Assembly: GCA_020350825.1 (NCBI GenBank)
Contig: CP070724.1
Span: 853,765-908,502 of the forward strand
Direction of reading: 5' to 3'
DNA: 54,738 nucleotides
Origin: Thermoplasmatales archaeon
GTDB lineage: Archaea > Thermoplasmatota > E2 > DHVEG-1
Shown here: positions 5,261-45,620 of the stretch, in pieces
How the letters are laid out: each line of letters begins with the position of its first letter
Numbering within the stretch: position 1 is the first letter of the stretch
Position numbers and translations under genes: made by a program
Notes under the pieces: model-generated
What the model was told of the DNA's origin: nothing
Seen by the model: the letters and a program-made list of their open reading frames with translations, nothing else
Databases searched by the model: none

Positions 5261-7294
5261 TTATAGCCCTAGTAAGTGTCTTAGTAATGGGAATGCATTT
5301 GGAAATAATTCTAGAATCTTTTGGAGTATAGGATGTATAAGGAAATGTTTATTTAATGGCATTTGCACATCGAGTGTTTCCCATTCGCTCTCATCACCTT
5401 GAGTATCTTTGGCTTTTACTCGTATAGTATATGTTCCTTTATTCTCCCATATATGACCTATAGTTACCTCTTCACCAGAACCATAATAGTCAGTCCACTC
5501 AGTATTACCGTCATCCCAGTTAATGAAGTATTTAACATTGTCCTCATTTGGATCTATTGTGGAAACGATGTATTCATATTCTACTCCTGCAGCTCCAGAT
5601 TGTTCTCCCGCAATACTTGGTTTATTAGGTGGTATATTTGGTGCTATTGTCGTGGTAAAATGCCAGATCGAACCAGACGTTGATTCCCCCTGACTATCCC
5701 AAGAAACAATCTGCCAATAATAAGTTGTGTTTAGGTCCATTGTACCTGGATCATAAAAGGCACCTGATTGATTATTTACAACCAATGGAGGAGGATTTGT
5801 CTGCCCAAAATATACATCATATTTTACTGTATCACCAGGATTGGGATCGCCACCAGTCCAACTCAAATCTGCTTCAACATTTACATCAATTTCTCCATCA
5901 CCTGGATCTGGATCACTTGGCATATTTGGTGGCACATTTTCTTCTGTTGTAAAACTCCATATTGATCCTTCTGATGTATAATCATATCTGTCCCAAGAAA
6001 CAATCTTCCAATAATATGTTTTATCAAATTCAAGTATACCAGGGTTATATGTCGTTCCTGATTGATTTGATACCACTTGCTGTGGAGGGCTACTGGTATC
6101 AAAATATAAATCATATTTTACTGGATCGCCATCTGGGTCACCCCCTGTCCAACTTAGGTCAGCGTTGATATAGACGTCTATTTCACCATTGGTTGGCGAA
6201 GGATTACTTGGGTTATTTGGTGGATCATTACCTCTTGTTGTGAAACTCCATTGTGGTCCAGATGTTGAAGCACCTTCATCATCCCAAGATACAATTTTCC
6301 AATAATATGTTTCATCGAAATTGAGTAAACCTGGAGGATTATATGTTGTTTCAGGTTGGTTACTAACAATCAATGAAGGTGGACTAGTAATACCAAAATA
6401 TACATCATAAGATACACTATTAAACCAATCAGGGTCTCCACCAGTCCAACTCAAACTAGCTTCAACAAGTATATTAGATCCACCGTTACTAGGAGAAGGA
6501 TTACTTGGGGTATATGGGGGTCGATTATTTCCCACCCGGACCCTTGTTGTCTCATCAACATAATCATTTGACTGAGAAAAAACCGATGCTACAACCATTA
6601 TATTGTCTTCTTCTATATTACCAAAACCAAGAGGTGTTCCATCCCAAGTTATAGTATCAGACCATATTCCACTAGATGCTACGTTTATATCTTGGTTAAA
6701 AACTAAGTCTAATAAGGCATTTGGAAAGGGTTGTCCAACATTATTTAACCATCGAGAAGTAATCTCTAAGATATATGCATGTATATGACCGTTGTAGGTG
6801 CTGCCTTCATTGTTGGTAACATCAACATCGATCTTTATTTGAGCATTTCCCAGCCAAGTAACAACTAAATCTAGATCAACATCAGCTACAGACCTACCAG
6901 CACAGGTATTATATGCATTCTGAAGGTTAGTTACACTAGATTGACCGCCAGAAACATATGTATATTCTCCATCCCAAAAAGATCTTGGATAACCACCCAT
7001 TCCAAGCTCATTTAATCTAGCAATAGTAGCTGGAGTATGACCATAGCTTGGGTTGTAATGGGAACATGTTAAAGATACAAGCTCCCAGTCACCAACCACT
7101 TGTTTAAGATAATGTTCATGAGATGGGCAATAAGGACATGTTGTTGCAGTTCCCAATTCAACTAGAACTGTATGGGCTCTCTCCATAGTCATCTCCTCTG
7201 GTGAAACGTTTGACGTTTTTGAAGAGGATATAGCTCCTGCAACTGTAGAAAACATCAGCATACAAACAAGGACGAAAATTAATTTCTTTTTCAT
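5261..7294 (-). CDS. Secreted Omp28-like thioredoxin-fold protein with three FN3-like domains, PKD and amphipathic C-terminal tail
   Basis: Signal peptide residues 1-22; Omp28-like region about 38-260 with Cys53-x-x-Cys56 (TATTCPYCPSHE) and ESTYNG-type second half; three FN3-like repeats (about 262-352, 356-447, 452-545), each with YDVYFG or YDLYFD and TYYWKIVSWD; a PKD domain (about 552-642; DPNEDNVKYFINWDDG); and a tail ending LELFPNAFPLLRHLLGL. The first 255 residues are almost identical to those of the gene at 11580-13070, and the upstream DNA is duplicated too. The repeats probably extend the thioredoxin domain from the cell surface and the tail probably anchors it; both are inference. 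Confidence 0.88.
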   Translation of the reverse strand: MKKKLIFVLVCMLMFSTVAGAISSSKTSNVSPEEMTMERAHTVLVELGTATTCPYCPSHEHYLKQVVGDWELVSLTCSHYNPSYGHTPATIARLNELGMGGYPRSFWDGEYTYVSGGQSSVTNLQNAYNTCAGRSVADVDLDLVVTWLGNAQIKIDVDVTNNEGSTYNGHIHAYILEITSRWLNNVGQPFPNALLDLVFNQDINVASSGIWSDTITWDGTPLGFGNIEEDNIMVVASVFSQSNDYVDETTRVRVGNNRPPYTPSNPSPSNGGSNILVEASLSWTGGDPDWFNSVSYDVYFGITSPPSLIVSNQPETTYNPPGLLNFDETYYWKIVSWDDEGASTSGPQWSFTTRGNDPPNNPSNPSPTNGEIDVYINADLSWTGGDPDGDPVKYDLYFDTSSPPQQVVSNQSGTTYNPGILEFDKTYYWKIVSWDRYDYTSEGSIWSFTTEENVPPNMPSDPDPGDGEIDVNVEADLSWTGGDPNPGDTVKYDVYFGQTNPPPLVVNNQSGAFYDPGTMDLNTTYYWQIVSWDSQGESTSGSIWHFTTTIAPNIPPNKPSIAGEQSGAAGVEYEYIVSTIDPNEDNVKYFINWDDGNTEWTDYYGSGEEVTIGHIWENKGTYTIRVKAKDTQGDESEWETLDVQMPLNKHFLIHPILQKILELFPNAFPLLRHLLGL

Positions 7295-7332
7295 TTTTAT
7301 TTTACCCCCTTATATATTTACTTATCAAAATT

Positions 7333-7362
7333 ACTATAGAACTTCTAGTATATAAATCTCAT
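7333..7362 (-). promoter_or_regulatory. Promoter with TAGAAGTTCTA dyad (copy 1)
   Basis: Minus strand reads GAGATTTATATAC then TAGAAGTTCTATAGT: a TATA box with a 5-1-5 inverted repeat (TAGAA/TTCTA) immediately downstream, over the expected start site. Near-identical copies lie at 10904 and 13109. Confidence 0.55.
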
Positions 7363-7382
7363 CACAAAAAGTTGGGATATTT

Positions 7383-7404
7383 TTACTGATTTCATTTCCA
7401 CAAC
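7383..7404 (-). repeat. Intergenic 3'-end motif copy
   Basis: Plus-strand TTACTGATTTCATTTCCACA, 70-90 nt past the stop of the geranylgeranyl reductase gene. One of about a dozen copies of the same motif in this window. Confidence 0.5.
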
Positions 7405-7473
7405 ACTATTCGCCCTTTTTTTACTCCTTATAAAATCGATTTCGTCGTTAAGAAGCTAATCTAAAAAATACAA

Positions 7474-8688: not shown

Positions 8689-8745
8689 TGTGCAACTGAT
8701 CTTCTACAATCATTTAATTTATTTAAATTTTTTTTCAGAGCATAA

Positions 8746-8763
8746 ATGCAACATCTTTAACAA
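8746..8763 (-). promoter_or_regulatory. Degenerate copy of the TTGnnACAnnTGTnnCAA dyad
   Basis: Plus-strand ATGCAACATCTTTAACAA lies upstream of the TATA box of the geranylgeranyl reductase gene. It matches the dyad seen at 22581, 49676, 50533 and 54376 with three changes. Confidence 0.4.
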
Positions 8764-8884: not shown

Positions 8885-8895
8885 GGGGATAATAT

Positions 8896-11008: not shown

Positions 11009-11467
11009 CTATAGTCTTAATAGATATCTTAGGATCGGGAACGCATTTGGAAATCGCTCAAAAAATCTTAGGAATAATGTGTTGATTATATGATGAGTCA
11101 GAGGTATGCTGATTTCTAATGTTGCTATGTCACTTTCTGCATCATAGATGTCTTTTGCATATGCTTGAATTGTATAACCCCCTTGTTCGGGCCATGAATG
11201 ACTAAGTGTTACTTCTACTCCAGATTCATATGGGCCATAGGTATGAAAATCTCCAGAGCCGCAACAACCCCAACTGACGCAGTAGTATACATCGTCGCCA
11301 TCTGGATCTATTGTACTAAAGTTGAAATCATACTCTACTCCAGGTTTTCCACTTGATGGACCAGTTATATTTGGTGTTTCTGGGGGTTGATTTGCAATTC
11401 CTGTCGTTGAAAGAATTGGTATGATCAATAGCATGCATATACAGATACTTATTGCGCTTTTCTTCAT
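11009..11467 (-). CDS. Small secreted PKD-domain protein with amphipathic C-terminal tail
   Basis: The 152 residues comprise a signal peptide (1-25), one PKD domain (about 28-122; DPDGDDVYYCVSWGC, GGYTIQAYAKDIYD) and the tail LFLRFFERFPNAFPILRYLL. It is essentially a PKD domain joined to the tail found on the larger Omp28-like and C25 proteins, which makes it the shortest natural carrier of that tail here. Function unknown; it could be an adhesive or scaffold module. GGGGAAATAAA precedes the ATG. Confidence 0.82.
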   Translation of the reverse strand: MKKSAISICICMLLIIPILSTTGIANQPPETPNITGPSSGKPGVEYDFNFSTIDPDGDDVYYCVSWGCCGSGDFHTYGPYESGVEVTLSHSWPEQGGYTIQAYAKDIYDAESDIATLEISIPLTHHIINTLFLRFFERFPNAFPILRYLLRL

Positions 11468-11579: not shown

Positions 11580-13070
11580 CTATACCCCAAGTATATGCCT
11601 TAGAATTGGGAACATATGTGGATGATTTTCTAGGAATCTTAGGAATAACAGGTTTATGCTGAATGGTTTATTTCTGGGAGTTGTAAGAGAGACATCTATT
11701 GTACAGGAATCTGTAGGATCCTCTGAATTGATTATCTTTACTTTTCCAGTGAAGGTTTGTTCTCCTTCATCTGGTGCGACAACTTCTACATCTACGGTAA
11801 ATGGTCCATAATCTGGTGTCAAGTCATCTCCTGATTCTGGAGTAAACGTCCATGTACCCCATTCAGGATGACTTTGTATCTCCCAATCTAAGAATGTAGG
11901 CGGATCACCGATGTTCTCAACAGTAAAACTTCCTGTCACAACCCCTCCAGGAGATATATCAGTCCAACTTAATGTACCATCGCAATCCAGGTTAGGTTCA
12001 GGTTCTCTAGTTGTGAAATGCCATACTGGACCAGGGGTTGAGGCAGCGTGATTATCCTCTGAAATGATCTGCCAATAATATGTTGTACTAAATTCAAGTG
12101 GTCCTGGATCATAGCTTGTTCCAGTCTGATCATCTGACACCAAAACATCAGGTGTAGAATCGTTTGCCTCGAAATATACATCATATGTTACACTATCAAA
12201 CCAATCGGGATCTCCCCCGTACCATGCAATATCTGTTCCAACATTAATATTGTTCGCACCGTTAGGTGGAAAACGAATAGTTGGGGTATATGGTGGACGA
12301 TTATTTCCCACTCGGACACTTGTTGTCTCATCAACATAATCATTTGACTGAGAAAAAACCGATGCTACGACCAGGATATTATCTTCTTCTATATCACCAA
12401 AACCAAGAGGTGTTCCATCCCAAGTTATTGTATCAGACCATGTTCCGCTAGATGCTACATTTATATCTTGATTAAAAACCAAATCTAATAAGGCATTTGG
12501 AAATGGTTTTCCGGCATTATTTAACCATCGGGAGGTAATTTCTAAGATATATGCGTGTATATGACCATTGTAGGTGCTGCCTTCATTGTTGGTAACATCA
12601 ACATCGATCTTTATTTGAGCACTCCCCAGCCAAGTAACAACTAGATCTAAATCAACATCAGCTACAGACCTAGCAGCACAGGCATTATATGCGCTTTGAA
12701 GGTTAGTTACACTAGATTGACCGCCAAGAACAGATCTATATCCTCCATCCCAAAAAGAGTTTGGATAGCCACCCATGCCCAGTTCAATTAATCTAGCCAC
12801 AGTAGCTGGAGTATGACCATTAGCTGGATTGTAATGAGAACATGTTAAAGATACAAGCTCCCAGTCACCAACCACTTGTTTAAGATATTGTTCATGGGAT
12901 GGACAATAAGGACATGTTGTTGCAGTTCCTAACTCTGCTAGAACCGTATGGGCTCTCCCCATAGTCATTTCTTCTGGTGGTTCGTTTGACGTTTTTGAAG
13001 AGGATATAGCTCCTGCAATTGTAGAAAATACCAGCATACAAACAAAGACGAAAATTAATTTCTTTTTCAT
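11580..13070 (-). CDS. Secreted Omp28-like thioredoxin-fold protein with FN3-like, beta-sandwich and amphipathic tail
   Basis: Signal peptide 1-22; Omp28-like region about 38-255 with Cys53-x-x-Cys56; one FN3-like module (about 257-352; YDVYFEANDSTPD, TYYWQIISEDNHA); a beta-sandwich of the type that follows Ig-like repeats in surface proteins (about 358-464; LSWTDISPGGVVTGSF, ENIGDPPTFLDWEI); and the tail LRFLENHPHMFPILRHILG. The N-terminal 250 residues and about 80 nt of upstream DNA are near copies of the gene at 5261-7294, while the rest differs, so one of them arose by duplication with exchange of the C-terminal half. Confidence 0.88.
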   Translation of the reverse strand: MKKKLIFVFVCMLVFSTIAGAISSSKTSNEPPEEMTMGRAHTVLAELGTATTCPYCPSHEQYLKQVVGDWELVSLTCSHYNPANGHTPATVARLIELGMGGYPNSFWDGGYRSVLGGQSSVTNLQSAYNACAARSVADVDLDLVVTWLGSAQIKIDVDVTNNEGSTYNGHIHAYILEITSRWLNNAGKPFPNALLDLVFNQDINVASSGTWSDTITWDGTPLGFGDIEEDNILVVASVFSQSNDYVDETTSVRVGNNRPPYTPTIRFPPNGANNINVGTDIAWYGGDPDWFDSVTYDVYFEANDSTPDVLVSDDQTGTSYDPGPLEFSTTYYWQIISEDNHAASTPGPVWHFTTREPEPNLDCDGTLSWTDISPGGVVTGSFTVENIGDPPTFLDWEIQSHPEWGTWTFTPESGDDLTPDYGPFTVDVEVVAPDEGEQTFTGKVKIINSEDPTDSCTIDVSLTTPRNKPFSINLLFLRFLENHPHMFPILRHILGV

Positions 13071-13138: not shown

Positions 13139-13159
13139 TACAAAAAAATTGGAAAAATT

Positions 13160-13246: not shown

Positions 13247-14536
13247 TTAAATGCCTCCACTTGGGCTTACTGTTATAAAGATCAAGAACACAAACCCATC
13301 TTGTTCTATTGTATCTGAGCTTTCTGGTATATCTGCTGTAGCTGTTATTACTGTTGGTCCGAACCCTATTATTAATTTTGAAGTCACAGTTTCACTACCG
13401 TCTTCAGGGATAGTCAAAGGCCCACCTTCGGTTTCTTTACCAATAAATGCCCCGCCTTCTAGTTTAATACTCCACTGTACACCTGTTGCTTCTTTGGACC
13501 CTATGTTTTCGATTTCTGTACTTACTTTGAATAATCCACCTTTTATAGGCTTTATATCTAGTATTGGTACTCCTTCAATGGTTGCTGTGGTCTCGTCCGA
13601 AGCAGTGCTTTGATCTGAGTCTGTAACAGTAAGATTAACAGTGTAGACACCAGGTTCACTATAAGTGTAAACGGGGTCTTCGACGGTTGAAGTATCGCCA
13701 TTACCGAAATCCCAAAGAAACTCATAGGGGGGTGTTCCACCAGCTGCAGTGCCATCAAACTGTATTTCTTCATCTACTAAGGCTTCATATGGTCCGTTGG
13801 CATCACACGAAAGCGGTTCTGGTCTGTCAAGAAGGAAGTCATCCCAATAAACTGATGTTGAGGGACTTGTATCTGCATAAAGATCGATACAGGCAAGGTT
13901 TTTCGCACCACCACCTGAAGCTCCATCAACCCAACTTTTCGAAAGTAGCTCTTCACCATCGTAGTAAACTGTTTGTATGTCTGCTTCAAAATCTACCTCC
14001 CAACGTAGCTGAACCCAATCGTCTGTTATAAGCGGTAACGAATCGCCTGGATTGTCCAAATCCCATATAAGACCACTTGTGGCACTAACGGCTAACTGGA
14101 GTGACCAGGAGTATGGGCCACCATGATTATAAGTGTTTAGCAGAATGAAATCCGATTGACCCTGCATATCACTGGGGACATAAAGATATGTGGTGATTAT
14201 CCATTCACCTGAGTTTATGTCAGTGAATTGTTGAACGATATCTGCTGATAACCCGCCGAACCAGGCGATTTCGCATGAGTTTGGGATGCTTCGTGCTTGA
14301 TCGTCAACGACATAGGCGGTTGTGGCTGGGTTATCATCCCAGGCTTCCCATCCGCCTTGGCCATGCAATGCACTCCCCGTAGCGTAGGAATCGAAATTAT
14401 CGGACCAGGCACGACCGGATGAAGTTGAGTTGGGTGTCAGATTAGAAGCCTTTTCAATATTCATGGCACCTGTTACTGAAAAAACAGTAACGAACAACAG
14501 CATACTTACAACAATGCTTACAATTTTCTTGTTCAT
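13247..14536 (-). CDS. Secreted concanavalin/LamG-like protein with PKD and C-terminal PGGG-type domain
   Basis: A signal peptide (1-24) is followed by a beta-sandwich of about 200 residues (DNFDSYATGSALHGQGGW, then WVQLRWEVDFEADIQTVYYDG) typical of concanavalin/LamG-like carbohydrate or protein binding domains. A PKD domain (about 240-322; YEFLWDFGNGDTSTVEDP, PGVYTVNLTVTDSD) and the recurrent C-terminal domain (IKPIKGGLFKVSTEIENIG, ending SPSGGI) follow. No catalytic motif is visible, so a binding or adhesion role is more likely than an enzyme. TACGGGAGGAAAAAAATG gives a strong Shine-Dalgarno. Confidence 0.85.
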   Translation of the reverse strand: MNKKIVSIVVSMLLFVTVFSVTGAMNIEKASNLTPNSTSSGRAWSDNFDSYATGSALHGQGGWEAWDDNPATTAYVVDDQARSIPNSCEIAWFGGLSADIVQQFTDINSGEWIITTYLYVPSDMQGQSDFILLNTYNHGGPYSWSLQLAVSATSGLIWDLDNPGDSLPLITDDWVQLRWEVDFEADIQTVYYDGEELLSKSWVDGASGGGAKNLACIDLYADTSPSTSVYWDDFLLDRPEPLSCDANGPYEALVDEEIQFDGTAAGGTPPYEFLWDFGNGDTSTVEDPVYTYSEPGVYTVNLTVTDSDQSTASDETTATIEGVPILDIKPIKGGLFKVSTEIENIGSKEATGVQWSIKLEGGAFIGKETEGGPLTIPEDGSETVTSKLIIGFGPTVITATADIPESSDTIEQDGFVFLIFITVSPSGGI

Positions 14537-14708: not shown

Positions 14709-16409
14709 TTAAATGCCGCCACTAGGATTGAGCTTTATAAAGAATAATAGCATCAACCCACTTTGTTCTCTAGTATCTGATCCCTCTACTATCTCAGCTG
14801 TAACCGTTACCTTTGTTTTTCCGAATCCTAATATTAAACCTGAATTTATAGTTTCGCTTCCGTCTGGAGGTATACTAGGTATCTCACCGTTACTTTCTTT
14901 GCCTACTAGTATTGTACCGCCATCTAAAGTGATGCTCCATTGTACATTTGTTGCTTCAACTTCACCATTGTTGTTAATTTTTGTATTCACTTTGAACAAG
15001 CCGCCAGAGATAACGCCTATATGCATAATTGGTGCTTGAAGAATGTGGATAGATAATGGATCTGACCAATCACTTTCCTTGTCATTTATATCTTTTGCTT
15101 TTACTCTTATATCGTATTCTCCTGGAACAGTCCAAACATGAGACGCTTCTCCAGTAGCACCTGAGTCATAAGGTCCAACCCAGTTGCTTGATGTGTTATC
15201 TCCCCAGTCAAACTTATAATAAATTTGTTCTCCTTCAGGATCAGTGGTAACTCCAGAGAATGTAAGTTCTTTATTCATCACTCCTTCTGTTGGTCCATTA
15301 GGTTGACCAGGTGTATCTGGTGGATAGTTCAAAATTTGCGCTTCTGCAAGTTCTCCCAAGGTCGCTATCATAAGCCTTGAACAACGAGTGTCATAATCAA
15401 GATCCATATTTGCAATAATGTCCAGTGATGAATGATAATAATCATTGAATTTATACTCATGGTAAAAAATTGCGTGATAATTAAAATCCCAGAAACTAGC
15501 ATGATCACTACCCGATGATGATCCACTTGGAACTACTGTTAATTCAAAATATTCTTTATAGTTTTGACTAACATCATTAGTGAAATCAGTAATCCATGAA
15601 GAAGCAGAGTTTTCATAGATTTTAATCATACTAGCTTCTGTTGGATTTGTTGCATAACCGATCATATCACCATTTAATACTGCTACAATATTGTCACCAT
15701 TTCCATAAGCCTCCTCTGCATATCTATAACTTCCGCGTAAGCCCTGTTCTTCACCGTCAAATGCAACAAAACGAATTGTATGATTGAATTCATATTGGCT
15801 CAAAACATATGCCGCTGCAAGAACTGCAGCAGTTCCAGAGCCATCATCATCTGCACCAGGACTTCCTGAAACAGAATCATAATGTGCACAAATAATGTAT
15901 ATCTCATCGCTACTTCCATCTATACCAGGCAGAGTACCTTCGATATTATTACCTGACTCCCCATAATAAGACCAGTCATCATATCGAGCTTCGAGTCCAT
16001 AACTAACAAATTCATTGTAAATATACTCTCCTGCTAGTTGACATGCAGTTGTTCCCGTTCTTCTTGGTCCAAAGTCAACAATATCCTCCAAGTAACCTAA
16101 CACGAGTGCTTCATCTATATTTTCCAGAATTTCAATAATTGTTTCATCATCGGATAATATGGTTCTATCAGGGGGATTGGAGGTTCTTTGAATATTTCCC
16201 GATTCCTTAATAACAAAATCCTCTGGCATTTCCCCTGGATCTGGTGGAAGTCTACCATCATTTAGATGTTTAACCTTTGATCTATAACTCTGATTTGGAT
16301 CTTGATAGGTTAATAATTGATTATTAGGTTCCCCTGGTAATCCCAAAACAGGTATTGCGTAGCCAATTAATAGCATGCAAATAAAAATTCCAATTATTTT
16401 TTTGTTCAT
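14709..16409 (-). CDS. Secreted M28 family aminopeptidase with PKD and C-terminal PGGG-type domain
   Basis: This is a paralogue of the gene at 1733. Numbering is from the upstream ATG at 16412. Signal peptide 1-25; a 60-residue linker; M28 domain about 95-360 with His177/Asp179 (AHYDS), GADDDGSG (188-190), Glu221-Glu222 (DGEEQ), Asp249 (NGDMIG) and His327 (YYHSS); PKD about 365-456; recurrent C-terminal domain from IMHIGVISGGLFKVNT to NPSGGI. All catalytic and zinc residues are present. GGGGAT sits 6 nt from ATG 16409 and 3 nt from ATG 16412; the former spacing is more usual. It carries the shared TATACCAAACATTTAAAT promoter. Confidence 0.92.
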   Translation of the reverse strand: MNKKIIGIFICMLLIGYAIPVLGLPGEPNNQLLTYQDPNQSYRSKVKHLNDGRLPPDPGEMPEDFVIKESGNIQRTSNPPDRTILSDDETIIEILENIDEALVLGYLEDIVDFGPRRTGTTACQLAGEYIYNEFVSYGLEARYDDWSYYGESGNNIEGTLPGIDGSSDEIYIICAHYDSVSGSPGADDDGSGTAAVLAAAYVLSQYEFNHTIRFVAFDGEEQGLRGSYRYAEEAYGNGDNIVAVLNGDMIGYATNPTEASMIKIYENSASSWITDFTNDVSQNYKEYFELTVVPSGSSSGSDHASFWDFNYHAIFYHEYKFNDYYHSSLDIIANMDLDYDTRCSRLMIATLGELAEAQILNYPPDTPGQPNGPTEGVMNKELTFSGVTTDPEGEQIYYKFDWGDNTSSNWVGPYDSGATGEASHVWTVPGEYDIRVKAKDINDKESDWSDPLSIHILQAPIMHIGVISGGLFKVNTKINNNGEVEATNVQWSITLDGGTILVGKESNGEIPSIPPDGSETINSGLILGFGKTKVTVTAEIVEGSDTREQSGLMLLFFIKLNPSGGI

Positions 16410-16456
16410 CATTTTATCCCCATTGTTTTACCTATAATTAGTAATCTACTCGTATA

Positions 16457-16579: not shown

Positions 16580-18451
16580 TTAGATACCGCCACCTGGATT
16601 TACATTGATAAAAAAGAGAAACATCTTTGCCCCTTGATCTCTGTTATCTGCTGATCCACGCGGTTCTTCAGCGGTCACAAAGATTGTTGTTTGGCCAAAT
16701 CCGAGGATAATATCTGTGCTAATGATTTCATCTCCACCTGGAGGAATGCTTAAAATAGTCCCTGTTGTTTCTTTCCCAAGGAAGATAATTCCACCTTGGA
16801 GGTTAATATTCCAACTAACATCATTGGCATCAGTATCACCATTGTTTCTGACGGGTGCGGTGACTTTGAGGAATCCATCTTTAATCAAACCGATTTCTAA
16901 CACCGGTTTGGCGATATGAATTGTCAGTGGTTCTGACCAGCCGCTTTCACTACCTTTTTCATCCTTAGCCTTTACTTTAATTGAATAATTTCCAGAATCA
17001 TACCAAATATGAGATTCCTCGATTGAAGTGCCTGAGGCGAAGGGACCGAGCCAACCAGTATTGCTGCTGTCTCCCCAGTCAAACCAATAGTAGATTTGTT
17101 CTCCTTCAGGATCGGTTGTGTTACTAGAGAATGAATATTCTTCTAGGATAATCCCCTCACCAGGTCCAACAGGTTTCAGCGGGTCCTCTGGTGCTAGATT
17201 AGTAGGATATAGAGATATTAGGGAGCCGATATTTACTGGATAGTCTCCATATTGTGGATGTTCATTTTGGATATCATGTGTTTTGGCATATAAGTATGCT
17301 TCATCCATAGTAATTCTGCCATCTTGATTATAATCAGCGTCAACTGGTATTCCATAGGCATCTTCTCCCTTAATAGCAGCTGTCCAATGAAACACATATT
17401 CATCATATTCAAGATTATTCATAGCCCATGAAAGTTCATCGTGTCGACAAGCTGATGAGGCCATAACTGGTCCCGGGGGAACTACTACATCATCTAAAAA
17501 TCCTCCAGAATAACATGGCTCAAACGTGCAGATAATCTCACAGTTAGGTAACGCATCCAAAAGAGCGGCAAAATGAGCATCAGTTAGTTCCTCATAATTC
17601 CAAAGATTTTGAACAACATTCCATCCACCAGCACTACTCCCATGATCAGTTGTAAAAATAAACAACTTATCATTCTCTGTTAGGATATTTGCTAGTTCGG
17701 CAAAAACCATATCTACATTTGATAGAATACAGGAATACATAATATCATCGTCTCCATCACCATCCAAATCTGGATCTGAATTAAGGCCATTGGACTGATC
17801 TGGAGCAGGATTTAATCCATCTGAACAAAGAACAATGATATTTTCATCAGGAAAACCATACACATAATTTAAGGTAATGTAAATATTTGATAGATCGTTC
17901 CAATACCTCACATGATTGGAACCTGAACTGTATCCACCATTCATAAGAACTGCATATCGTGAATCAGTTGAACGTTGCGAAAGAGCAGGGATTGCCCCAT
18001 CCGGAATTGGTGCTCGTCTATTTTCCACTGATGTGAGTAATGTCCCGATTGCTGTTTTGATCATTTGATAATCAGCAAAATTGCCTGGAGGGCTCATTGC
18101 ATCCTTAACAATAAATTCCTCTGCGGATTCTGATAGAAATATATATTTCACAGGGTGAAATAAATTCGCTCTTGGATATATGTCGATGTAAATTACGTAT
18201 CCTTTTTCTGGAGTATTCAATATATGTTCTTTGGTGCCAAAAATTTCTTCTCCTTTAGAGATAGGGCCCCAAGCGTAAAGGAGAACTTCATCTATATCAT
18301 ATGAAAGTCGCTCTATGACAAAACGTGCTGCATCTTCAGCGTTTGAAATTGATGAATTTGCAAGTGTCAAATTTGAGCAGGAGACAAAAAGTAGAATAAA
18401 TGTTATTACACACGCTTTCATAATTGTATAAATTTTATTTTTTGTGTTCAT
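16580..18451 (-). CDS. Secreted C13 (legumain-like) cysteine peptidase with PKD and C-terminal PGGGI domain
   Basis: The 623-residue protein starts at ATG 18451 behind AGGAGTGAT; further upstream starts lack a ribosome site. The signal peptide is hydrophobic with a lipobox-like LFVSC. The peptidase domain (about 165-400) carries the C13/caspase-fold dyad: His270 in FTTDHGSSAGG and Cys313 in TFEPCYSGGF, after YAVLMNGG. A dockerin-like acidic segment (DADYNQDGRITMDEA) follows, then a PKD domain and the recurrent domain ending NPGGGI. Legumain relatives cut after Asn or Asp, though specificity is not predictable here. Promoter of the TATACCAAACATTTAAAT type at 18576. Confidence 0.88.
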   Translation of the reverse strand: MNTKNKIYTIMKACVITFILLFVSCSNLTLANSSISNAEDAARFVIERLSYDIDEVLLYAWGPISKGEEIFGTKEHILNTPEKGYVIYIDIYPRANLFHPVKYIFLSESAEEFIVKDAMSPPGNFADYQMIKTAIGTLLTSVENRRAPIPDGAIPALSQRSTDSRYAVLMNGGYSSGSNHVRYWNDLSNIYITLNYVYGFPDENIIVLCSDGLNPAPDQSNGLNSDPDLDGDGDDDIMYSCILSNVDMVFAELANILTENDKLFIFTTDHGSSAGGWNVVQNLWNYEELTDAHFAALLDALPNCEIICTFEPCYSGGFLDDVVVPPGPVMASSACRHDELSWAMNNLEYDEYVFHWTAAIKGEDAYGIPVDADYNQDGRITMDEAYLYAKTHDIQNEHPQYGDYPVNIGSLISLYPTNLAPEDPLKPVGPGEGIILEEYSFSSNTTDPEGEQIYYWFDWGDSSNTGWLGPFASGTSIEESHIWYDSGNYSIKVKAKDEKGSESGWSEPLTIHIAKPVLEIGLIKDGFLKVTAPVRNNGDTDANDVSWNINLQGGIIFLGKETTGTILSIPPGGDEIISTDIILGFGQTTIFVTAEEPRGSADNRDQGAKMFLFFINVNPGGGI

Positions 18452-18575
18452 TATTATCACTCCTAAGAACAATATTTCCATAATCATTATCTCTATTAAT
18501 AGCATTATTGTCAATCGTGAGTTCTTTCTCCTCTATTGTCAAATACATCTGTAGTAGTTATAATTGTATACTCTA

Positions 18576-22501: not shown

Positions 22502-22580
22502 GTTTTTCCCCCTTTTAATATAAAATTTAATAAAGAAAATATATATAACCTACACTTAAATAATTTTCCCAAAAATTTAT

Positions 22581-22598
22581 TTGCAACATCTGTAACAA
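22581..22598 (-). promoter_or_regulatory. TTGnnACAnnTGTnnCAA dyad operator candidate
   Basis: Plus-strand TTGCAACATCTGTAACAA, about 20 nt upstream of a TATA box (ATTATTTAAG) for the 1266-residue gene. Outer TTG/CAA and inner ACA/TGT are symmetric. Confidence 0.5.
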
Positions 22599-22677: not shown

Positions 22678-24585
22678 TTAACTGGGATATCCGCCGATTT
22701 TTAAACTCGGATCACCAAGGAGTATCCATTGCTGTACAATTTTGCAATCTGTTAAATCATACATTGGAGGAAATTCGTTTAAATAATATATTAGTTCAGT
22801 TGAATGTGTCTCTCCTAGTATATCCTTTCCTTCACTGTAACTTCTGAAGAACTGAATTTCTAAAAATCGTCCGCGTCCTGTATTCCAGTTTTCACCAGCT
22901 ATTCCATAGCCAAGACCTGTATTTGCCATTATTCCAATACAACCACCTCTAGATCTACTTGCCATTGACCACGCCCAACATCTTGGAACCCACTCCTCAT
23001 ACCAAAACTCTCCTAAAGGTCCCCATTCCCGATCAGTGTTGAAATATCCTTTTAAACCATTTTCTAAAATCCCTTTTATAATGTTAAAAAGGCTTGTGTT
23101 GATCTGTGCATTATGACAACCGCCTACAAGTACAATGGGTTGTTTGTCTCCATTTCGTAGTTTGCGCATATCAAAGCAACTTGGGCCTTCTACCCATTCA
23201 TCTTCACTATTTGGTGGATGATTACTCCAAAGAGCTGGATTTCCATGACCTGAAAAATGTACAAATCCACAACCTTTGCTAATTTCATCAATAACGCTTT
23301 GTTTACCTGAAAACTTTCCATTTGATGTCCATAAGAACGAGGATTCAAAACCATCTAGATAGTTGAATGCTGCTTCTGTTGCAAGTTCACCTTCATAATA
23401 TGGGTCGCCAACATCAGGATAGGTATCACCTGCTACCCCAACGAATTTGGTGAACCATTCTTCTCCATATGCTGTGTTTTCATAAGTGATTATTTTATTA
23501 ACCATGGTTTTCACTTCAAAAATATTTTTACACGCTAATCGACCAACATATACCTCAGGATACATATCAAGTATGTCTTTAATTACTCCATCCCATTCGG
23601 CGAAGATATTGTTACTATTGGTATCCCATGATGAGAAATTTCCTTCATCATCATAAATATCTGCAAAATACAGATCACATAAATACGATGATTCGTCACC
23701 TTTAACTAAATGTGAATAACGAACTGGAACCCACCATTTCTCCTCGAAAATTCCGCCTTTTCTTCCTCCTACTAAAAGTACGTATTTGATTCCCCATTCA
23801 TCAAGAGATGATTTTATAAAATATTTCACTTCTTCGGCACAATCTCTTCCCTCTACTGGAAAGTAAACACTATTGTATATGTCATCAAGAGTGACTAACT
23901 TAGTTGTTACATTGTGTTCATTCTTATGATCAATTAGCGGCTGTAGTGACTGAGTAAACTTGGATGGTGCTATAACAACCATTTCGTACTCATCTGTTAA
24001 AACCAAAGGATCGCTAGATAATTCATAGGTTATTTTTATGTGAGCGTTATTGGCATAGTATAACTTTTTCTCCGAAGAGCGGTACTGAATGGGACATAAT
24101 TTTACCGATAAATAGTTAACAATTTTATCGTCATCTCTACCTGCACCAATATTGTAGTTATACTGTTTTTCAGGATACAGCCCCGAATGAGAAATTATAT
24201 CTTTATTTTCCTCTATAATTTTAGAGGGCATCTTTTTATTATAAATATCAGGAATCGGTTCTGTAGCTAGACATATGTTTTTCGACAATATTTTTTCTTT
24301 TATATCTGAAAAATCGACATCGACATTTTTTATTTTTGTTCTAAAAGGAAAAACAAAAACGCGTGTAACAGTTGGTAAAATATAATTTCCTGGTTCCATT
24401 AGATATGAGGTTGCTTCGTTAAGCTTTACTTCAACATAATCATCTAATTCCTTTAATTTTGGATCTGAAAAAGAAATTGATTCTATTTTTTCTAATGTTC
24501 CTTGTTCTATTTCAGGTAAAGCAACAGCCCCCAGTCCACTAAGTACTAAAATTCCTACTACTAATAATGGGAATGTCTTTTTCAT
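22678..24585 (-). CDS. Secreted C25 (gingipain-like) cysteine peptidase
   Basis: A signal peptide (1-22) and a beta-rich propeptide region (about 40-195) precede the two-part C25 catalytic domain (about 200-620). The catalytic pair is present: His447 in FSGHGNPALW and Cys490 in LVGGCHNAQ. DLYFADIYDDEGNF with GRLACKN is the usual strand pattern of the first subdomain. The protein ends LGDPSLKIGGYPS without a sorting tag. C25 enzymes are caspase-fold endopeptidases, classically cutting after Arg or Lys. The first 20 residues are nearly the same as in the next gene. Strong AAGGAGGT leader; shared promoter at 24629. Confidence 0.92.
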   Translation of the reverse strand: MKKTFPLLVVGILVLSGLGAVALPEIEQGTLEKIESISFSDPKLKELDDYVEVKLNEATSYLMEPGNYILPTVTRVFVFPFRTKIKNVDVDFSDIKEKILSKNICLATEPIPDIYNKKMPSKIIEENKDIISHSGLYPEKQYNYNIGAGRDDDKIVNYLSVKLCPIQYRSSEKKLYYANNAHIKITYELSSDPLVLTDEYEMVVIAPSKFTQSLQPLIDHKNEHNVTTKLVTLDDIYNSVYFPVEGRDCAEEVKYFIKSSLDEWGIKYVLLVGGRKGGIFEEKWWVPVRYSHLVKGDESSYLCDLYFADIYDDEGNFSSWDTNSNNIFAEWDGVIKDILDMYPEVYVGRLACKNIFEVKTMVNKIITYENTAYGEEWFTKFVGVAGDTYPDVGDPYYEGELATEAAFNYLDGFESSFLWTSNGKFSGKQSVIDEISKGCGFVHFSGHGNPALWSNHPPNSEDEWVEGPSCFDMRKLRNGDKQPIVLVGGCHNAQINTSLFNIIKGILENGLKGYFNTDREWGPLGEFWYEEWVPRCWAWSMASRSRGGCIGIMANTGLGYGIAGENWNTGRGRFLEIQFFRSYSEGKDILGETHSTELIYYLNEFPPMYDLTDCKIVQQWILLGDPSLKIGGYPS

Positions 24586-24705: not shown

Positions 24706-26601
24706 TCAGAGTTGTAAAAGTAACGTAAATAGCCGCTCAAACAGTGGAAAACGCTCTTTTACTTGTTCCATAAACCGAAGAAAAAATGACGGAAGGTTTA
24801 CAGGAATGCTCTCAGGTTCAAGACCATCTTCTATAGCTAGTGTGGGGTCTCCAAACATTGAAAACTCTAACATTGTTTTATAGTCTTCGATATCTAATTC
24901 GAGTTCGAAAGTGTTGTAATAATCTGAGATACAGTTAGCCCAAACCTGTCCAAGTACCTTGGTGTTGTATAACTCTTCGAAGACTTTTACTTCCATCCAA
25001 CCAATGCATCGCCCTACAAAAGCAGTTCCCCCAGGACCATGGCCTATGCCTGCCTCAGCAAATGTTGCAATACTGCCTCCATTCTTTTTGTTTAGCATTT
25101 TCCAACCAATGCATTTTGATGAATCAGTATATTTATTATTTGAACAGGCGGTAAAGACGACAACAGGAAGTTTTTTGGCATTAGTAAGCCTGTATATGTC
25201 AACGTCAAAATTGAAGAATCCCTCAACTGGTGAAATGATTGTTTTAGGTGGAATCCATGTACTCTCATCATCTGGTGGATGTGTAGCCCAGCTAGCCCAG
25301 CTGCCGTGTCCAGAAAAATCAGCATAATCTACGCAACTTCTGAAACCTTTTCCTATATTACCCTTTGTCATTTGTCCATTAGATCCCCATAAACGTCTGG
25401 TCGTATAACCCGGTAGTTTTTCCAAGACTTTTTCGTTTGCGTATTCTCCCGTGTATACATCGGTACCTGGAAGTGAGTCGCCTCCGATTTGTAAGATTTT
25501 GTTTGTCATCTTATTGTGTTCCTTGTAATTAATTATTTTATTTACTACTGCTTTGACTTCTTTAACGTTGTTACAAGGGAGTTTTCCAAGATAGACATCC
25601 GGATGGACATCTACGTTTGGTTGGTCATCTGGAAACTCAGCATGTTTTCCGTCACTGTCATAATCCCAATTTGAAAAACCACCAGTACTATTATATATAT
25701 CAGCATAGTAAAGATCACTTGGGAAATATTCTTCGTGAGGCGCACTTGGGATCCAAGCGTTTCTCACAGGGAATATTTCTTCATCTTCAACACCAGCGCC
25801 AACAAGAAGAACATAAGTAATGCCCCAACTCTCTTTTGCGTCTTTTATGTAGTATTTGATATCTTCTTGTTCATCAACACCAACAGATGGGATGTCGTCA
25901 AGAGTTACCAGCTTTGTATTTACTGGTGGCTCTAAGCTGTTTTTATGATCGACAAGAGGTTGTAGCGCAGACTCAAACTCTGCAGGTGCAATTATTAAGA
26001 GATCATACTCATCTGGGAAATTAACTGGTTTTTCAGGTGGAGTGTATGTAACATCAATTGTTGCGCTATCAGAATAGTAAATGTTATTCTCTTTTGGATT
26101 ATATTGAATTGGGTAAAGATGCACAGTTAGGTAAATGACGTGTTCTTCATCCTTTAATCCTGCTCCAGTTCTATATCCCCATCGAAGTTCTGGATACACA
26201 TCAATGTCCGAATATGTCACCGTTGTCTCTGGTTCTACATTGTTATTTGAGACATAAACAGTGGAGAATATTTGTAACTTTGGAGAGGGTATAATAGGCT
26301 TTGATACCTCCTGTTCAATAATGTCAGAAAACGAAACATCGACATTATCCACGCGTGTACCAAATGGAAATGTATACACCTTTGTGACTACTGGCAATGT
26401 TGGTTTATCTTTTTCCCAAGAATTAGAAGTTGCTTCTGCTAAACCTATGGTGATGTAATCTTCTTTCTCATCTATTACTGGCTGCGAAAAATAGATTATT
26501 TTAGATTCAAATATTTCTTTCTCATCTTCAGTTCCAGCAACTGCTCCAAGTCCACTTAGGACCAAAATTCCTACTACTAATAATGGTAATGTCTTTTTCA
26601 T
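24706..26601 (-). CDS. Secreted C25 (gingipain-like) cysteine peptidase with amphipathic C-terminal tail
   Basis: Signal peptide 1-22, propeptide-like region about 30-190, C25 catalytic domain about 198-590 with His432 (DFSGHGSWASW) and Cys486 (FTACSNNKY). The domain ends at FGDPTLAIEDG, then a short linker (PESIPVN) and the tail FFLRFMEQVKERFPLFERLF, the longer variant of the amphipathic tail on the Omp28-like proteins. It is closely similar end to end to the gene at 43725-45620. About 75 nt of upstream DNA is also shared with the gene at 22678, pointing to tandem duplication. Promoter at 26645. Confidence 0.92.
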   Translation of the reverse strand: MKKTLPLLVVGILVLSGLGAVAGTEDEKEIFESKIIYFSQPVIDEKEDYITIGLAEATSNSWEKDKPTLPVVTKVYTFPFGTRVDNVDVSFSDIIEQEVSKPIIPSPKLQIFSTVYVSNNNVEPETTVTYSDIDVYPELRWGYRTGAGLKDEEHVIYLTVHLYPIQYNPKENNIYYSDSATIDVTYTPPEKPVNFPDEYDLLIIAPAEFESALQPLVDHKNSLEPPVNTKLVTLDDIPSVGVDEQEDIKYYIKDAKESWGITYVLLVGAGVEDEEIFPVRNAWIPSAPHEEYFPSDLYYADIYNSTGGFSNWDYDSDGKHAEFPDDQPNVDVHPDVYLGKLPCNNVKEVKAVVNKIINYKEHNKMTNKILQIGGDSLPGTDVYTGEYANEKVLEKLPGYTTRRLWGSNGQMTKGNIGKGFRSCVDYADFSGHGSWASWATHPPDDESTWIPPKTIISPVEGFFNFDVDIYRLTNAKKLPVVVFTACSNNKYTDSSKCIGWKMLNKKNGGSIATFAEAGIGHGPGGTAFVGRCIGWMEVKVFEELYNTKVLGQVWANCISDYYNTFELELDIEDYKTMLEFSMFGDPTLAIEDGLEPESIPVNLPSFFLRFMEQVKERFPLFERLFTLLLQL

Positions 26602-42069: not shown

Positions 42070-43419
42070 ATGAAAGCTATGTGTGAGGTTTGTGGAAAAA
42101 AATTCAAAAATCCTTTTGCATTGACCGGTCATTATAAAATGAAAGATGACGCTCCTCATAGAGCTTGGAGAGAGAAAAACATTAAATCAAATGTTCAGCC
42201 TAAAACACAGAAATCAGCGGTTCAGCATGGGCCTTATTCTCCTGATGTTCTTGAAAAAGCACAGGAACTTGTTGAAAAAGAGGCGAAAGATAAAATCATC
42301 AATGAATATTTCAAAAATATAATTATGCCTCTGTTCGATAATGGCACCTGGTTAGATTTTAATAAACACCAGAGTATTCTAGCTAAAAAAGATGAAGATC
42401 ACCAATTAGAAATATCGTCCATTGAGGCTTCTCACCAAATAGAAAAGGAGAATCTGGAGAATCAGATTTATAATCAGTCAGTAGAAATCAATTTTTTAAA
42501 GGATGAAAATTTCCGGTTAAGTAACTATATAGATAATCGTTTTGATGGTGAGGTTGGAAGATGGCGGAAAGAGCTAACACATAAACAAGAAGATTTTGCC
42601 AGATATAAAGAAGCGGAGTTATCAAATCTTAATAAATTAAAAGCCGAGATTGATAAGAAACAAAAAGATGTCGAGTTACGTGAAAATATAATCGCGGAAC
42701 GTGAAGAAGACATAATAAAACGGGAAGATGATTTTGAAAAAAATAAAAAAACCTACGATTGTATATTAAAAGAAAAAATAAAAATCATAAAAAAGCGTGA
42801 AGAAAATGTCACCGAATCGGAAAAGGAGCTCATAAGGGTGGTAGATAAGAAGAAAAATGAGCTGAATAACGAACGAAAAAAAATAAAAGAATATCATGAG
42901 AAATGGGAAAGTGAAATAAAATACAAAGTGGATAAACAGATAGAAGAAATAAAAAATGATCAAGAAAAAATAATAAATGAATGGGAAAAAATAGATAAAG
43001 TAAAAGAAGAACAAAAGGCCGAAAGTAAGCGATTGGAAAATTTGCAGAAAAAATTGAGGGGAGCTTGGTGTTCAAACAAGTTTTTATTGCCATGTCCCAA
43101 TTGTAAAGATCCTATGTTATTTGACACTAATAATCCGGAAATAAATCAAAAAATCCGCAAGATATTTGGTAATTATACTCACCCTGAGTGTAGAACAAGA
43201 TATGAACAAAAGAAACCTGTCATATTAAGCCCTTTTTTATCTAGCGGTGAACCTAACGTACAATCCGGAGTTCAGCCAATTGTTATATCTGATGAAAAAG
43301 TGAACGTAGCTGAAAATAGTGGAGATCCAGTTTATCAATCAGGATTTACACGATTTTATGCCTCAGGAATGGAAAATTTTGATAAAACTAGTAGTAAGAG
43401 CAACGCATTTTCTTCTTAA
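42070..43419 (+). CDS. Zinc finger/long coiled-coil/zinc finger protein
   Basis: The 449-residue protein starts with a C2H2-like finger (Cys5, Cys8, His21, His30 in MCEVCGKKFKNPFALTGHYK and its continuation). A helical region of charged heptads covers about 85-330 (many K/E, ending KEEQKAESKRLENLQKKLRG). A second metal site follows (PCPNCKDPMLF ... YTHPECRTRY) and a low-complexity tail. Such proteins bind DNA or act as structural rods; no family is recognised. GGGGTG lies 12 nt before the ATG. Neighbours on both sides face other directions, so it is a single-gene unit. Confidence 0.8.
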   Translation: MKAMCEVCGKKFKNPFALTGHYKMKDDAPHRAWREKNIKSNVQPKTQKSAVQHGPYSPDVLEKAQELVEKEAKDKIINEYFKNIIMPLFDNGTWLDFNKHQSILAKKDEDHQLEISSIEASHQIEKENLENQIYNQSVEINFLKDENFRLSNYIDNRFDGEVGRWRKELTHKQEDFARYKEAELSNLNKLKAEIDKKQKDVELRENIIAEREEDIIKREDDFEKNKKTYDCILKEKIKIIKKREENVTESEKELIRVVDKKKNELNNERKKIKEYHEKWESEIKYKVDKQIEEIKNDQEKIINEWEKIDKVKEEQKAESKRLENLQKKLRGAWCSNKFLLPCPNCKDPMLFDTNNPEINQKIRKIFGNYTHPECRTRYEQKKPVILSPFLSSGEPNVQSGVQPIVISDEKVNVAENSGDPVYQSGFTRFYASGMENFDKTSSKSNAFSS

Positions 43420-43724
43420 GCAAACAAAAAAATTTTTAGCTTCTTTGCAACTCTTAAAGATAAAGAAATTTATCGCACTATTTCGTTAGAGATTAAATTC
43501 TTTACATAAGAATATCGGCTAATTTATCATAATGATTTTGTAATCTTCATAATAAATGGTTTCATTGAATTTACACTCAAATAACTACACAAGCTCTACC
43601 ATACCATGCGCCTCAACTTTATATCGGTAATAATTTAGAAGTTTTACATTACTTGTACTGATTTCATCGTTATGTTACTTTATAGATTTAAAAAAGGAAT
43701 GAAGGGATGATAATAAATATAATT
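43420..43724. other. 305-base gap between convergent genes
   Basis: AT-rich, no frame seen. Position 43655-43676 holds a copy of the 3'-end motif (plus-strand GTACTGATTTCATCGTTATG), about 50-70 nt past the stop of the C25 gene; as no same-direction gene follows, this copy ties the motif to 3' ends rather than promoters. Confidence 0.5.
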
Positions 43725-45620
43725 TTAACTGTGTTTTAGAAGCAATGAAAATAGTTGTTCCAATCGTGGAAAACGCTCTATAACTCGTTCAATGAACCGT
43801 AGAAGAAATGACGGAATGTTCACTGGAATGCTCTCAGGATCATCACCATCTTCTATTGCTAGTGTTGGATCTGCAAACATTGAATATTCAAGCATTGTTT
43901 TATAGTCTATCTTGTCTAAATCTGACTGAAAAGTGGAGTAATAGTTTGTTATACAGTTACTCCAGGCCAATCCAAGTATTTTATTATTGAAAATCTCTTC
44001 ATGGGTATGTACCTCCATCCATCCCATAAGCCGTTCTGTTTCATGACTTCCATGACTTCCATACCCAATACCTGATGCACCAAATGCTGCAATACCACCG
44101 CCATCAGGTTTCATAAGGGTTTTCCAAGCCAAACAGGTTTCTGTACCGGTATATTTATTGTTAGAACAGGCATTGTAAAAGACTACAGGAAGTTTTTTGG
44201 AATTGAGCACAAAGAATAAATCAAAGTCAACATAAAGCCATCCTGTAAATGATGACAATAGCTCTGCAGGAGGAATCCATGTATGCTCATCATCAGGTGG
44301 ATGAGTAGACCAAGAAAGACGGCTGCCATGACCAGAAAAATCAACAAAATCTACACAGCTTCTGAAACCTTTTGCAATATTACTCTTCGTCATTTGTCCA
44401 TTAGATCCCCATAAACGCCTTGTAGAATACCCCGGAAGCCTGCTTAATACATCTTCATTTGCAAACTCTCCCTCATAAATACCTTCATCGTCACCAGGAA
44501 ATGTATCCCCACCAATCTGTAATATTTTATTTGTCATCTTATTGTGCTCCTTATAGTTGATTATTTTATTTACGACAACAGAAACCTCACTTGCAGAATT
44601 AGCAGGTAATTTCCCAAGGTAAACATCTGGAATTACATCTACAGCTGGCATATCGATTGGATACTCTGCATATTTTCCATCGCCATCATAATCCCAACTA
44701 GAGAACCCACCAGCACCGTCATATATATCAGCATAGTAAAGATCACTCGGGAAGTTTTCCTCATATTGATCAGAAGGAATCCATGCATATCTAACAGGAA
44801 AAATTTCTGCATCCTTTACACCAGCTCCAACTAATAGAAGGTATGTAATATCCCAGTTTTCTATTGCATCTTTGACATAGTATTTGATGCTTTCCTGTTC
44901 ATCCACACCAACAGATGGGATTTCATCAAGTGTTGTCAGTTTTGTGTCAATTCCAATACCGTTTTTATGTTCAACCAAAGGCTGTAACGCCGATGAAAAC
45001 TCTTCAGGTGCAATTATCAAAAGATCATAAACATCAAGAAAATTAACCGGATTTTCTGGAGTTGTATATCTTACATCAACTGTTGCAGATTTTGAGTAAT
45101 AAACTGTATTTTGATTGGGATTATATTGAACTGGATAAAGACTAATTATTAGGTAAATAACGCGTTCTTCACCATTTAATCCTGCTCCAGTACGATAGCT
45201 ATATCGAGATTCTGGATATATATCTATATCTGAATAACTCACCATTTTAGATTTTTCGTATGTAACTGAAGTAACCTTGGTGTTTTTCATTATTGGTTCA
45301 GGTGCAGGCTCAATTGGTTTTGATATTTCTTCTTCTAGAGTATCAGAAAATGTTACCTCTACGCTGTCCACACGTGTACCAAAAGGAAATGTATACACTT
45401 TAGTTACTACAGGGAGTATTGGTTTACCAGTTTCCCAAGAATCAGAATTAGATTCTGTTAATCTAATTGAAATATAATCTTCTTTTTCATGAAATGTTGG
45501 TCTTGAGAAAGGGAATGTTTCAAATATTACATCTTCTTTTTTATCTTCTGTTACAGCAACTGCTCCAAATCCTGATATGATTAAAACTCCTACAATTAAT
45601 ATTGGTATTATTTTCTTCAT
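43725..45620 (-). CDS. Secreted C25 (gingipain-like) cysteine peptidase with amphipathic C-terminal tail
   Basis: A close paralogue of 24706-26601 along its whole length: signal peptide 1-22, propeptide-like region, catalytic domain with His431 (DFSGHGSRLSW) and Cys485 (YNACSNNKY), FADPTLAIEDGDDPESIP linker, and the tail FLLRFIERVIERFPRLEQLF. GGGAT precedes the ATG. Unlike its paralogue it does not carry the TATACCAAACATTTAAAT promoter, so regulation may differ. Extracellular endopeptidase by homology. Confidence 0.92.
   Translation of the reverse strand: MKKIIPILIVGVLIISGFGAVAVTEDKKEDVIFETFPFSRPTFHEKEDYISIRLTESNSDSWETGKPILPVVTKVYTFPFGTRVDSVEVTFSDTLEEEISKPIEPAPEPIMKNTKVTSVTYEKSKMVSYSDIDIYPESRYSYRTGAGLNGEERVIYLIISLYPVQYNPNQNTVYYSKSATVDVRYTTPENPVNFLDVYDLLIIAPEEFSSALQPLVEHKNGIGIDTKLTTLDEIPSVGVDEQESIKYYVKDAIENWDITYLLLVGAGVKDAEIFPVRYAWIPSDQYEENFPSDLYYADIYDGAGGFSSWDYDGDGKYAEYPIDMPAVDVIPDVYLGKLPANSASEVSVVVNKIINYKEHNKMTNKILQIGGDTFPGDDEGIYEGEFANEDVLSRLPGYSTRRLWGSNGQMTKSNIAKGFRSCVDFVDFSGHGSRLSWSTHPPDDEHTWIPPAELLSSFTGWLYVDFDLFFVLNSKKLPVVFYNACSNNKYTGTETCLAWKTLMKPDGGGIAAFGASGIGYGSHGSHETERLMGWMEVHTHEEIFNNKILGLAWSNCITNYYSTFQSDLDKIDYKTMLEYSMFADPTLAIEDGDDPESIPVNIPSFLLRFIERVIERFPRLEQLFSLLLKHS

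Follow-up and report, generated by a model that had tools for sequence, protein, structure and literature searches.

A conserved amphipathic C-terminal tail on predicted secreted proteins of a Thermoplasmatales archaeon: a possible envelope docking tag

Many predicted secreted proteins of one Thermoplasmatales archaeon end in the same kind of short amphipathic tail, which is centred on an FP motif and follows bodies of several unrelated types. The tail was analyzed in a stretch of 54,738 nucleotides (GenBank assembly GCA_020350825.1, contig CP070724.1, positions 853,765 to 908,502; the whole stretch is called the window below), in the remainder of the source genome, and in genomes of the same class and phylum. 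We read it as a mobile module at the C-terminus of predicted secreted proteins that may serve as a non-covalent envelope docking tag acting through a shared protein partner, a reading that we favour tentatively and would not yet call probable.

Tails at the ends of predicted secreted proteins

The source genome is a single contig of 2.32 Mb. When the tail of the protein at 11009 was used as sole query, 46 matches at E <= 1 were obtained in this genome, the query included, and both window tails of C25 peptidases were missing from the matches at this threshold. A profile built from 43 tails (A2) gave 76 matches at E <= 1; 64 of these reach E <= 1e-3, six of the 64 lying within the window. Profiles A2 and A6 include tails that they then recover, and for A2 the tail at 5261 is one of them. 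Sixty-one of the 64 matches were read (the other three have E values of 3.6e-5, 1.9e-4 and 4.8e-4), and 58 of them end 12 or fewer residues from the stop, one of the 58 being a remnant of 31 residues; among the remaining three, one runs 28 residues further and two are interrupted by stops. Distinct closed tails, from loci mostly collected as tail matches, are C-terminal in 163 of 166 cases, and the expectation that matches would be C-terminal rather than internal was borne out in both sets. Stop-interrupted remnants at genome positions 1079628-1079735 (L025) and 1403108-1403194 (L040) are decayed tail genes.

A total of 47 intact carriers from this genome, left from 59 tail rows after removal of three shorter than 60 residues, seven with masked bases and two fragments, match 48 Pfam families. 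The 25 families listed include PKD, C25, papain C1, M14, NosD/beta-helix, several beta-propellers, rhodanese and CBM96, in keeping with the original prediction that unrelated bodies carry the tail, and PKD_4 is matched in 18 of the 47. Among the 465 pairs formed by the bodies of 31 carriers, similarity at E < 1e-5 was seen in 257, and 92 had no BLAST match at E <= 10. A different domain before each tail, as had been claimed, is thus true of the window cases and not of the whole genome, where a PKD-type domain is common to many carriers. By a simple home-made rule, a signal-peptide-like start was present in 42 of the 47 carriers with a judgeable start (10 with masked starts, one starting outside the stretch and one too short were left out), which agrees with the earlier statement that the tails sit on signal-peptide proteins; four of the other five show such a start by eye behind a non-ATG start, and one does not. 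The same rule was positive in 36 of 121 control genes, which were taken from regions rich in membrane proteins. Choice-of-anchor models name domains whose anchors vary, and the cut-off of the NCBIfam choice-of-anchor J model was passed by one of ten carriers scanned singly (68.6 versus 30 bits).

The six window tails and other features of the window are listed in Table 1. All six were found in the translations at the extreme C-terminus, as predicted, and the sixth (54614) lies outside the interval 5261..45620 that had been given for them. The LRF-E element described for every tail is present in the other window tails and absent at 5261, which has QKILE, while the full pattern LRF[FL]-E-x-x-P-x-x-FP-[IV]-[LI]-R is present in three of the six. 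A single shared end pattern, also proposed, applies to the first subtype; the two C25 tails (24706 and 43725) depart from xLRxLLGL after FP and represent a looser second subtype, in which the upstream LRF-E and ERFP are kept and the FPxLRxLLGL end is not. They are counted with the first subtype because relatives of these C25 peptidases carry it. The module begins upstream of the described pattern, in many cases at a linker of the type MP[KR]N[KR].

Table 1. Positions in the window of the six tails, of two C25 peptidases without a tail, and of other features
Feature	Position	Strand	Protein or context	C-terminal residues (translation)	Tail ends	Profile E
Tail, first subtype	5261..5368	-	Omp28-like/PKD protein, 5261-7294	...NKHFLIHPILQKILELFPNAFPLLRHLLGL	LFPNAFPLLRHLLGL	5.0e-14
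Tail	11009..11113	-	152-residue protein with signal peptide and PKD, 11009-11467; structure model	...IINTLFLRFFERFPNAFPILRYLLRL	ERFPNAFPILRYLLRL	1.1e-14
Tail	11580..11684	-	Omp28-like protein, 11580-13070	...INLLFLRFLENHPHMFPILRHILGV	ENHPHMFPILRHILGV	3.3e-18
Tail	54614..54718	-	Gene start outside the window	...INMLFLRFLENHPHMFPVIRHILGL	ENHPHMFPVIRHILGL	4.9e-18
Tail, second subtype	24706..24810	-	C25 peptidase, 24706-26601; structure model	...IPVNLPSFFLRFMEQVKERFPLFERLFTLLLQL	KERFPLFERLFTLLLQL	2.4e-7
Tail, second subtype	43725..43832	-	C25 peptidase, 43725-45620	...IPVNIPSFLLRFIERVIERFPRLEQLFSLLLKHS	IERFPRLEQLFSLLLKHS	2.7e-9
C25 peptidase without tail (contrast case)	22678..24585	-	Ends with its catalytic domain			
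C25 peptidase without tail (contrast case)	50827..52788	-				
Promoter-like motif	22577-22596	-				
Promoter-like motif	50529-50548	-				
Promoter-like motif	52857-52876	-				
Promoter-like motif	54372-54391	-				
Second C-terminal type	1733-3328					
Second C-terminal type	13247-14536					
Second C-terminal type	14709-16412					
Second C-terminal type	16580-18514					

Conservation, predicted fold and copying of the tail

The pattern P..[FL][PQ][ILVM] is fitted by 142 of 165 distinct tails. Since this selection pattern itself requires the P, F/L and P/Q places, the E and R places alone are free evidence: E or Q occurs in 139 of the 142 tails, R in 125, and K at the R place in 8. Within the source genome the R place holds R in 36 of 36 tails, chosen with R, K or Q allowed, while the codons at this place are near saturation (identity 0.316 versus 0.272 expected); on sequence grounds, this combination speaks for R having been kept by selection. 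An MP/TP linker precedes 124 of the 165 tails, and both variable places of MP[KR]N[KR] are basic in 72.

The helical moments of the first subtype (0.517 and 0.467) exceed those of shuffled sequences (0.341 and 0.324, with standard deviations of 0.013 and 0.011), and the same is true of the second subtype (0.620 and 0.545 versus 0.339 and 0.341). No first-subtype tail among 138 is transmembrane-like (19-residue window above 1.6, last 40 residues), which upholds the earlier statement that the tail is not a transmembrane helix. In the AlphaFold model of the PKD protein at 11009, helices at residues 126-138 and 144-150 lie around PNAFP, next to a body with a predicted local distance difference test score (pLDDT) of 92-98; in that of the C25 peptidase at 24706, helices at 606-617 and 619-630 follow a linker (599-605) below 50 and a body mostly above 90. 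A helix-FP-helix arrangement set apart from the body is therefore predicted in two unrelated proteins.

Codon identity in the tail core is 0.642 for the 92 pairs with dissimilar bodies and 0.641 for the 257 similar pairs, against 0.416 expected from codon usage. Because codons are shared above expectation even between dissimilar bodies, the tails are, by this measure, related through copying. Among relatives of the 24706 peptidase, 112 of the best 120 of 1161 extend at least 30 residues past the catalytic domain, FP lies within 91 of these 112 extensions, and 25 C25 extensions among the 120 listed relatives fit the broad first-subtype pattern. Some of the first-subtype relatives are 67-72% identical to the 24706 peptidase, itself of the second subtype, and C25 relatives that share 60-72% identity with the window's C25 peptidases show swaps of tail subtype. 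Pairs of 3' flanks above 0.6 identity make up 19.8% after tails versus 1.9% after 21 non-tail window genes, and 21.7% where the bodies are dissimilar. The idea that tail DNA and 3' flank form one cassette was dropped: the stretch in common includes a promoter-like motif that belongs to the gene that follows, and this motif is found without a tail too.

The promoter-like motif GTTACAGATGTTGC, often with a TTTAAAT-like box after it, occurs at four sites in the window (Table 1); at three of them, but not at the 50529 site, a gene for a predicted secreted protein lies about 60-76 bp downstream. The source genome has 33 exact copies of it and none of the reversed control, and the motif was found in 9 of 45 genomes of the family, mostly of the same genus. 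A second type of C-terminus (...GFGxTxI...TAE...F(V/M)FLxFIxxNP(G/S)GG[IL]) is present in four window proteins; those scanned have PKD and M28 domains and one weak CARDB match, and this type also ends C25 peptidases of relatives (L077, L081). A type I dockerin domain forms the end of one C25 peptidase of the source genome (L080, 410915-415039). The C25 enzymes of this genome thus have several kinds of C-terminus.

Distribution and search for a known family or enzyme

A DNA pattern for ERFPNAFPI gave 67 matches in 63 stretches among 84,980 species genomes; by simple arithmetic, about one match in 257 Gb is expected by chance for such a nine-residue pattern. Together with the 46 single-query matches in the source genome, this argues that the tail is more than a chance resemblance. 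Archaeal records, titled Thermoplasmatales, Thermoplasmata, Thermoplasmatota, Euryarchaeota or 'uncultured archaeon' (the lineage of one was verified), account for 65 of the 67 matches. Counted back from the last residue, the E of the motif stands precisely at place 16 in 52 of the 67, and a contig end truncates one match. The non-archaeal match in Mailhella lies 30 residues from the end of a protein that looks unrelated by eye, and is likely due to chance. The second non-archaeal match is on a 4.5 kb 'Candidatus Parcubacteria' contig (L176), which opens with a tail end followed, by eye, by ftsH and is probably chimeric.

Profile matches were found in 44 of 80 genomes of the class and in 46 of 389 genomes of the phylum, the latter being a draw from a larger group; the 46 comprise 41 of the 45 genomes of the window's family and 5 of 344 others. 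No profile match was found in the seven genomes of two sister families of the same order. The five positive genomes outside the family have one or two matches each, known from the profile only, with best E values of 7.9e-10 to 9.3e-4. Counts in the family range from 0 to 90 per genome and rise with genome size (Spearman 0.61, 45 genomes), the highest being lower bounds, as up to 98 candidates per genome were scored in the class search and up to 20 in the phylum search. With at least 954 matches at E <= 1e-3 in these 45 genomes, mostly by profile alone, the tail is a large, sequence-specific class without a transmembrane segment in one archaeal family. C-terminal surface signals are known mostly as transmembrane-type sortase substrates.

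The absence of a described sorting family, as supposed in the original prediction, was supported by searches with 48 tails alone: NCBIfam gave no family at E <= 10, and Pfam gave nine scattered and weak ones (best E 0.0063, at most three of the 48 tails each). A dockerin (EF-hand) was matched by Pfam on none of these tails at E <= 10 and was not among the 25 of 48 carrier families listed. No sorting domain was found among the 25 of 64 NCBIfam families listed for the 47 whole carriers, and the PorU-type models listed by NCBIfam match the C25 catalytic domain, in one scan below cut-off. The sole match of the tail profile in the PDB, ProQ at E 0.56, was unconvincing. Full-text search for FPNAFPILR returned no paper, and no description was found in the open-access literature on archaeal C-terminal sorting signals, most subscription papers lying outside this scope. 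Of the 142 tails, 5 have a cysteine among their last 30 residues, so that an invariant cysteine like that of MYXO-CTERM or lipobox-like signals is absent.

No PGF motif is present in the six window tails, and in the source genome the PGF-CTERM profile finds other genes, not the tails. In four genes of this genome the end consists of (T)PGFE followed by a hydrophobic stretch and then basic residues, and one of the four scores above the PGF-CTERM cut-off; the genome's one archaeosortase gene adjoins genes of the phosphatidylserine (PS) decarboxylase family and for a CDP-alcohol phosphatidyltransferase (Pfam). In each of four genomes (L118-L121) an archaeosortase gene lies beside two genes that are alike throughout, with the Pfam identities taken from L118, and by eye near an Mrp/NADH dehydrogenase-like cluster. 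In PMC7157517, artA, pssA and pssD are described as syntenic in Methanosarcina and as having a part in the same lipid anchoring in Haloferax. Because separate PGFE genes and an archaeosortase stand in the same genome, it is likely that an ArtA-type system has its own substrates there and that the tail is a parallel device; the tail as archaeosortase substrate was rejected on account of these genes. Archaeosortase occurs in 70 of the 80 class genomes, tail-less families among them, and PGF-CTERM likewise occurs in tail-less families. Across the 45 family genomes, tail counts are unrelated to those of archaeosortase (Spearman 0.13, p 0.41), CPBP (-0.17), rhomboid (0.13) and PGF-CTERM (0.10; all p > 0.27), and known sorting enzymes were rejected as partner on these counts. 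C25 occurs in 75 of the 80 class genomes, and tail-less genomes reach the same C25 counts (lower bounds, about 21 scored candidates per genome). The suggestion that tails would co-occur with a particular processing or membrane protein was not supported for archaeosortase, C25, CPBP or rhomboid.

A possible docking tag, its rivals and known systems

If the tail is a docking tag, a carrier with a predicted signal peptide would be exported via the general pathway, and its last 35 or so residues, modelled by AlphaFold in two proteins as a linker and two amphipathic helices around an FP turn apart from the body, would bind non-covalently, making contact by the hydrophobic faces of the helices and by the conserved residues E, FP and R. 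In this way the body, in many cases a protease, PKD or propeller domain, would be retained at the surface, and new proteins would likely gain the tag by copying of DNA onto the 3' ends of other genes, as the codons shared between dissimilar bodies suggest. A bolder version, to which we give slightly less credence, is a helix-FP-helix plug specific to the lineage, which copying of DNA at 3' ends would have brought to up to 90 exoproteins per genome and which a dedicated envelope receptor would read, so that a protein-degrading coat is built on the surface. If true, this would be a plug-and-socket system in uncultured archaea unlike cohesin-dockerin or any CTERM/sortase pair. The tail would offer a simple handle for predicting exoenzymes kept on the cell and would make the partner a findable target. 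C25 and further predicted exopeptidases abound in the tailed family, and we infer that this family belongs to Thermoprofundales (MBG-D), for which extracellular peptidases including C25 were reported in the parts of PMC6461988 on this lineage. The same report labels a C25 peptidase as containing a Por secretion sorting domain, and its passages on that peptidase mention no such tail.

Several results weigh against a docking tag. No partner protein emerged among archaeosortase, C25, CPBP and rhomboid, and four of the 45 family genomes have no profile match. AlphaFold places low to moderate confidence in the tails (63-77 at 11009 and 48-66 at 24706). Judged by the shared codons, residue conservation is partly descent and not selection, and tail and body have often been copied together, since many carriers have a PKD-type body (257 of the 465 pairs). 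The second subtype retains little except FP and amphipathicity, and a plain lipid anchor would fit it too. Such an anchor, in which two amphipathic helices would be embedded in the outer face of the cell membrane itself without involving a protein partner, is a somewhat more doubtful possibility, yet nearly as good as a docking tag given the looseness of the second subtype and the missing partner. It is also in line with the high helical moments of both subtypes, with first-subtype tails that are never transmembrane-like (0 of 138), and with tail numbers tracked by no sorting enzyme tested. The docking tag is preferred because a lipid anchor should not call for constraints as strict as the excess of R over K (125 versus 8 of the 142 tails, the genome being AT-rich) and the constant spacing from the carboxyl end.

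The remaining explanations carry less weight. C25 PorU is the sortase of the type IX secretion system (T9SS), and it is conceivable, though unlikely, that the tail serves as a recognition signal and is cut off, perhaps by one of the many C25 (gingipain/PorU-like) peptidases, with the protein joined to something at the surface. The basic linker of 72 tails and the presence of C25 enzymes in nearly all class genomes fit such cleavage, but many tails, those of the window's C25 peptidases included, lack a basic linker (e.g., MPYSYN, MPLSYE), and C25 counts, as lower bounds, are just as high in genomes that have no tails. Since the basic linker is not conserved across genera, cleavage at this site was itself rejected. 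We consider it less probable again that tails bind one another and gather different exoproteins into shared complexes, as might be suggested by an amphipathic two-helix end that so many different proteins of the cell have in common. A degenerate PGF-CTERM signal read by archaeosortase has been largely refuted already and is highly improbable: the genome does have one archaeosortase beside the two genes named above, but it is four other genes that bear the PGFE ends, archaeosortase and PGF-CTERM extend to tail-less families, and the tails have no transmembrane segment. The least credible explanation is that the tails have no function and are conserved merely through recent copying of paralogues; many carriers are indeed paralogues with codon identity above expectation, but the tails are conserved across genera and occur on several unrelated bodies, and R is kept though its codons are near saturation.

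Among known systems, PGF-CTERM with archaeosortase A (and likewise PEP-CTERM, MYXO-CTERM and GlyGly-CTERM) resembles the tail in being a short module with which many different signal-peptide proteins end, restricted to certain lineages and present in dozens per genome. CTERM signals consist of a motif, a transmembrane helix and a basic end and are processed by a membrane enzyme, whereas the tail has no transmembrane segment and stands in the same genome beside separate PGF-CTERM genes and an archaeosortase. The T9SS (Por) C-terminal domains and PorU are alike in that a C-terminal delivery module is found on different exoproteins and C25 peptidases are present; those domains are folded beta domains of Bacteroidota, whereas the tail is archaeal, consists of about 35 residues of predicted helix, and alone has no NCBIfam match. 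The earlier view that the tail is unlike both PGF-CTERM and Por secretion tails holds, as it has no PGF motif and no transmembrane helix and matched no sorting-domain model.

Dockerins are likewise C-terminal plugs on exoenzymes, but with an EF-hand fold that is not seen in the tails. In Escherichia coli PBP5, a C-terminal amphipathic helix is considered to lie in the plane of the membrane, and PBP5 anchors are not known to us as a module that dozens of different proteins share with conserved sequence. PBP5 resembles the tail carriers as an exported enzyme with a non-transmembrane amphipathic C-terminal helix (PMC2909392, passages on this anchor). Encapsulation peptides, in the parts of PMC11157265 on them, are short amphipathic helices on a flexible linker at the ends of different cargo that dock to a shared protein. 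The tails are alike in having an amphipathic terminal helix on a linker, as judged from their moments versus shuffled sequences and from the models; encapsulation peptides act in the cytoplasm on a microcompartment shell, whereas 42 of 47 tail carriers begin with a signal-peptide-like start.

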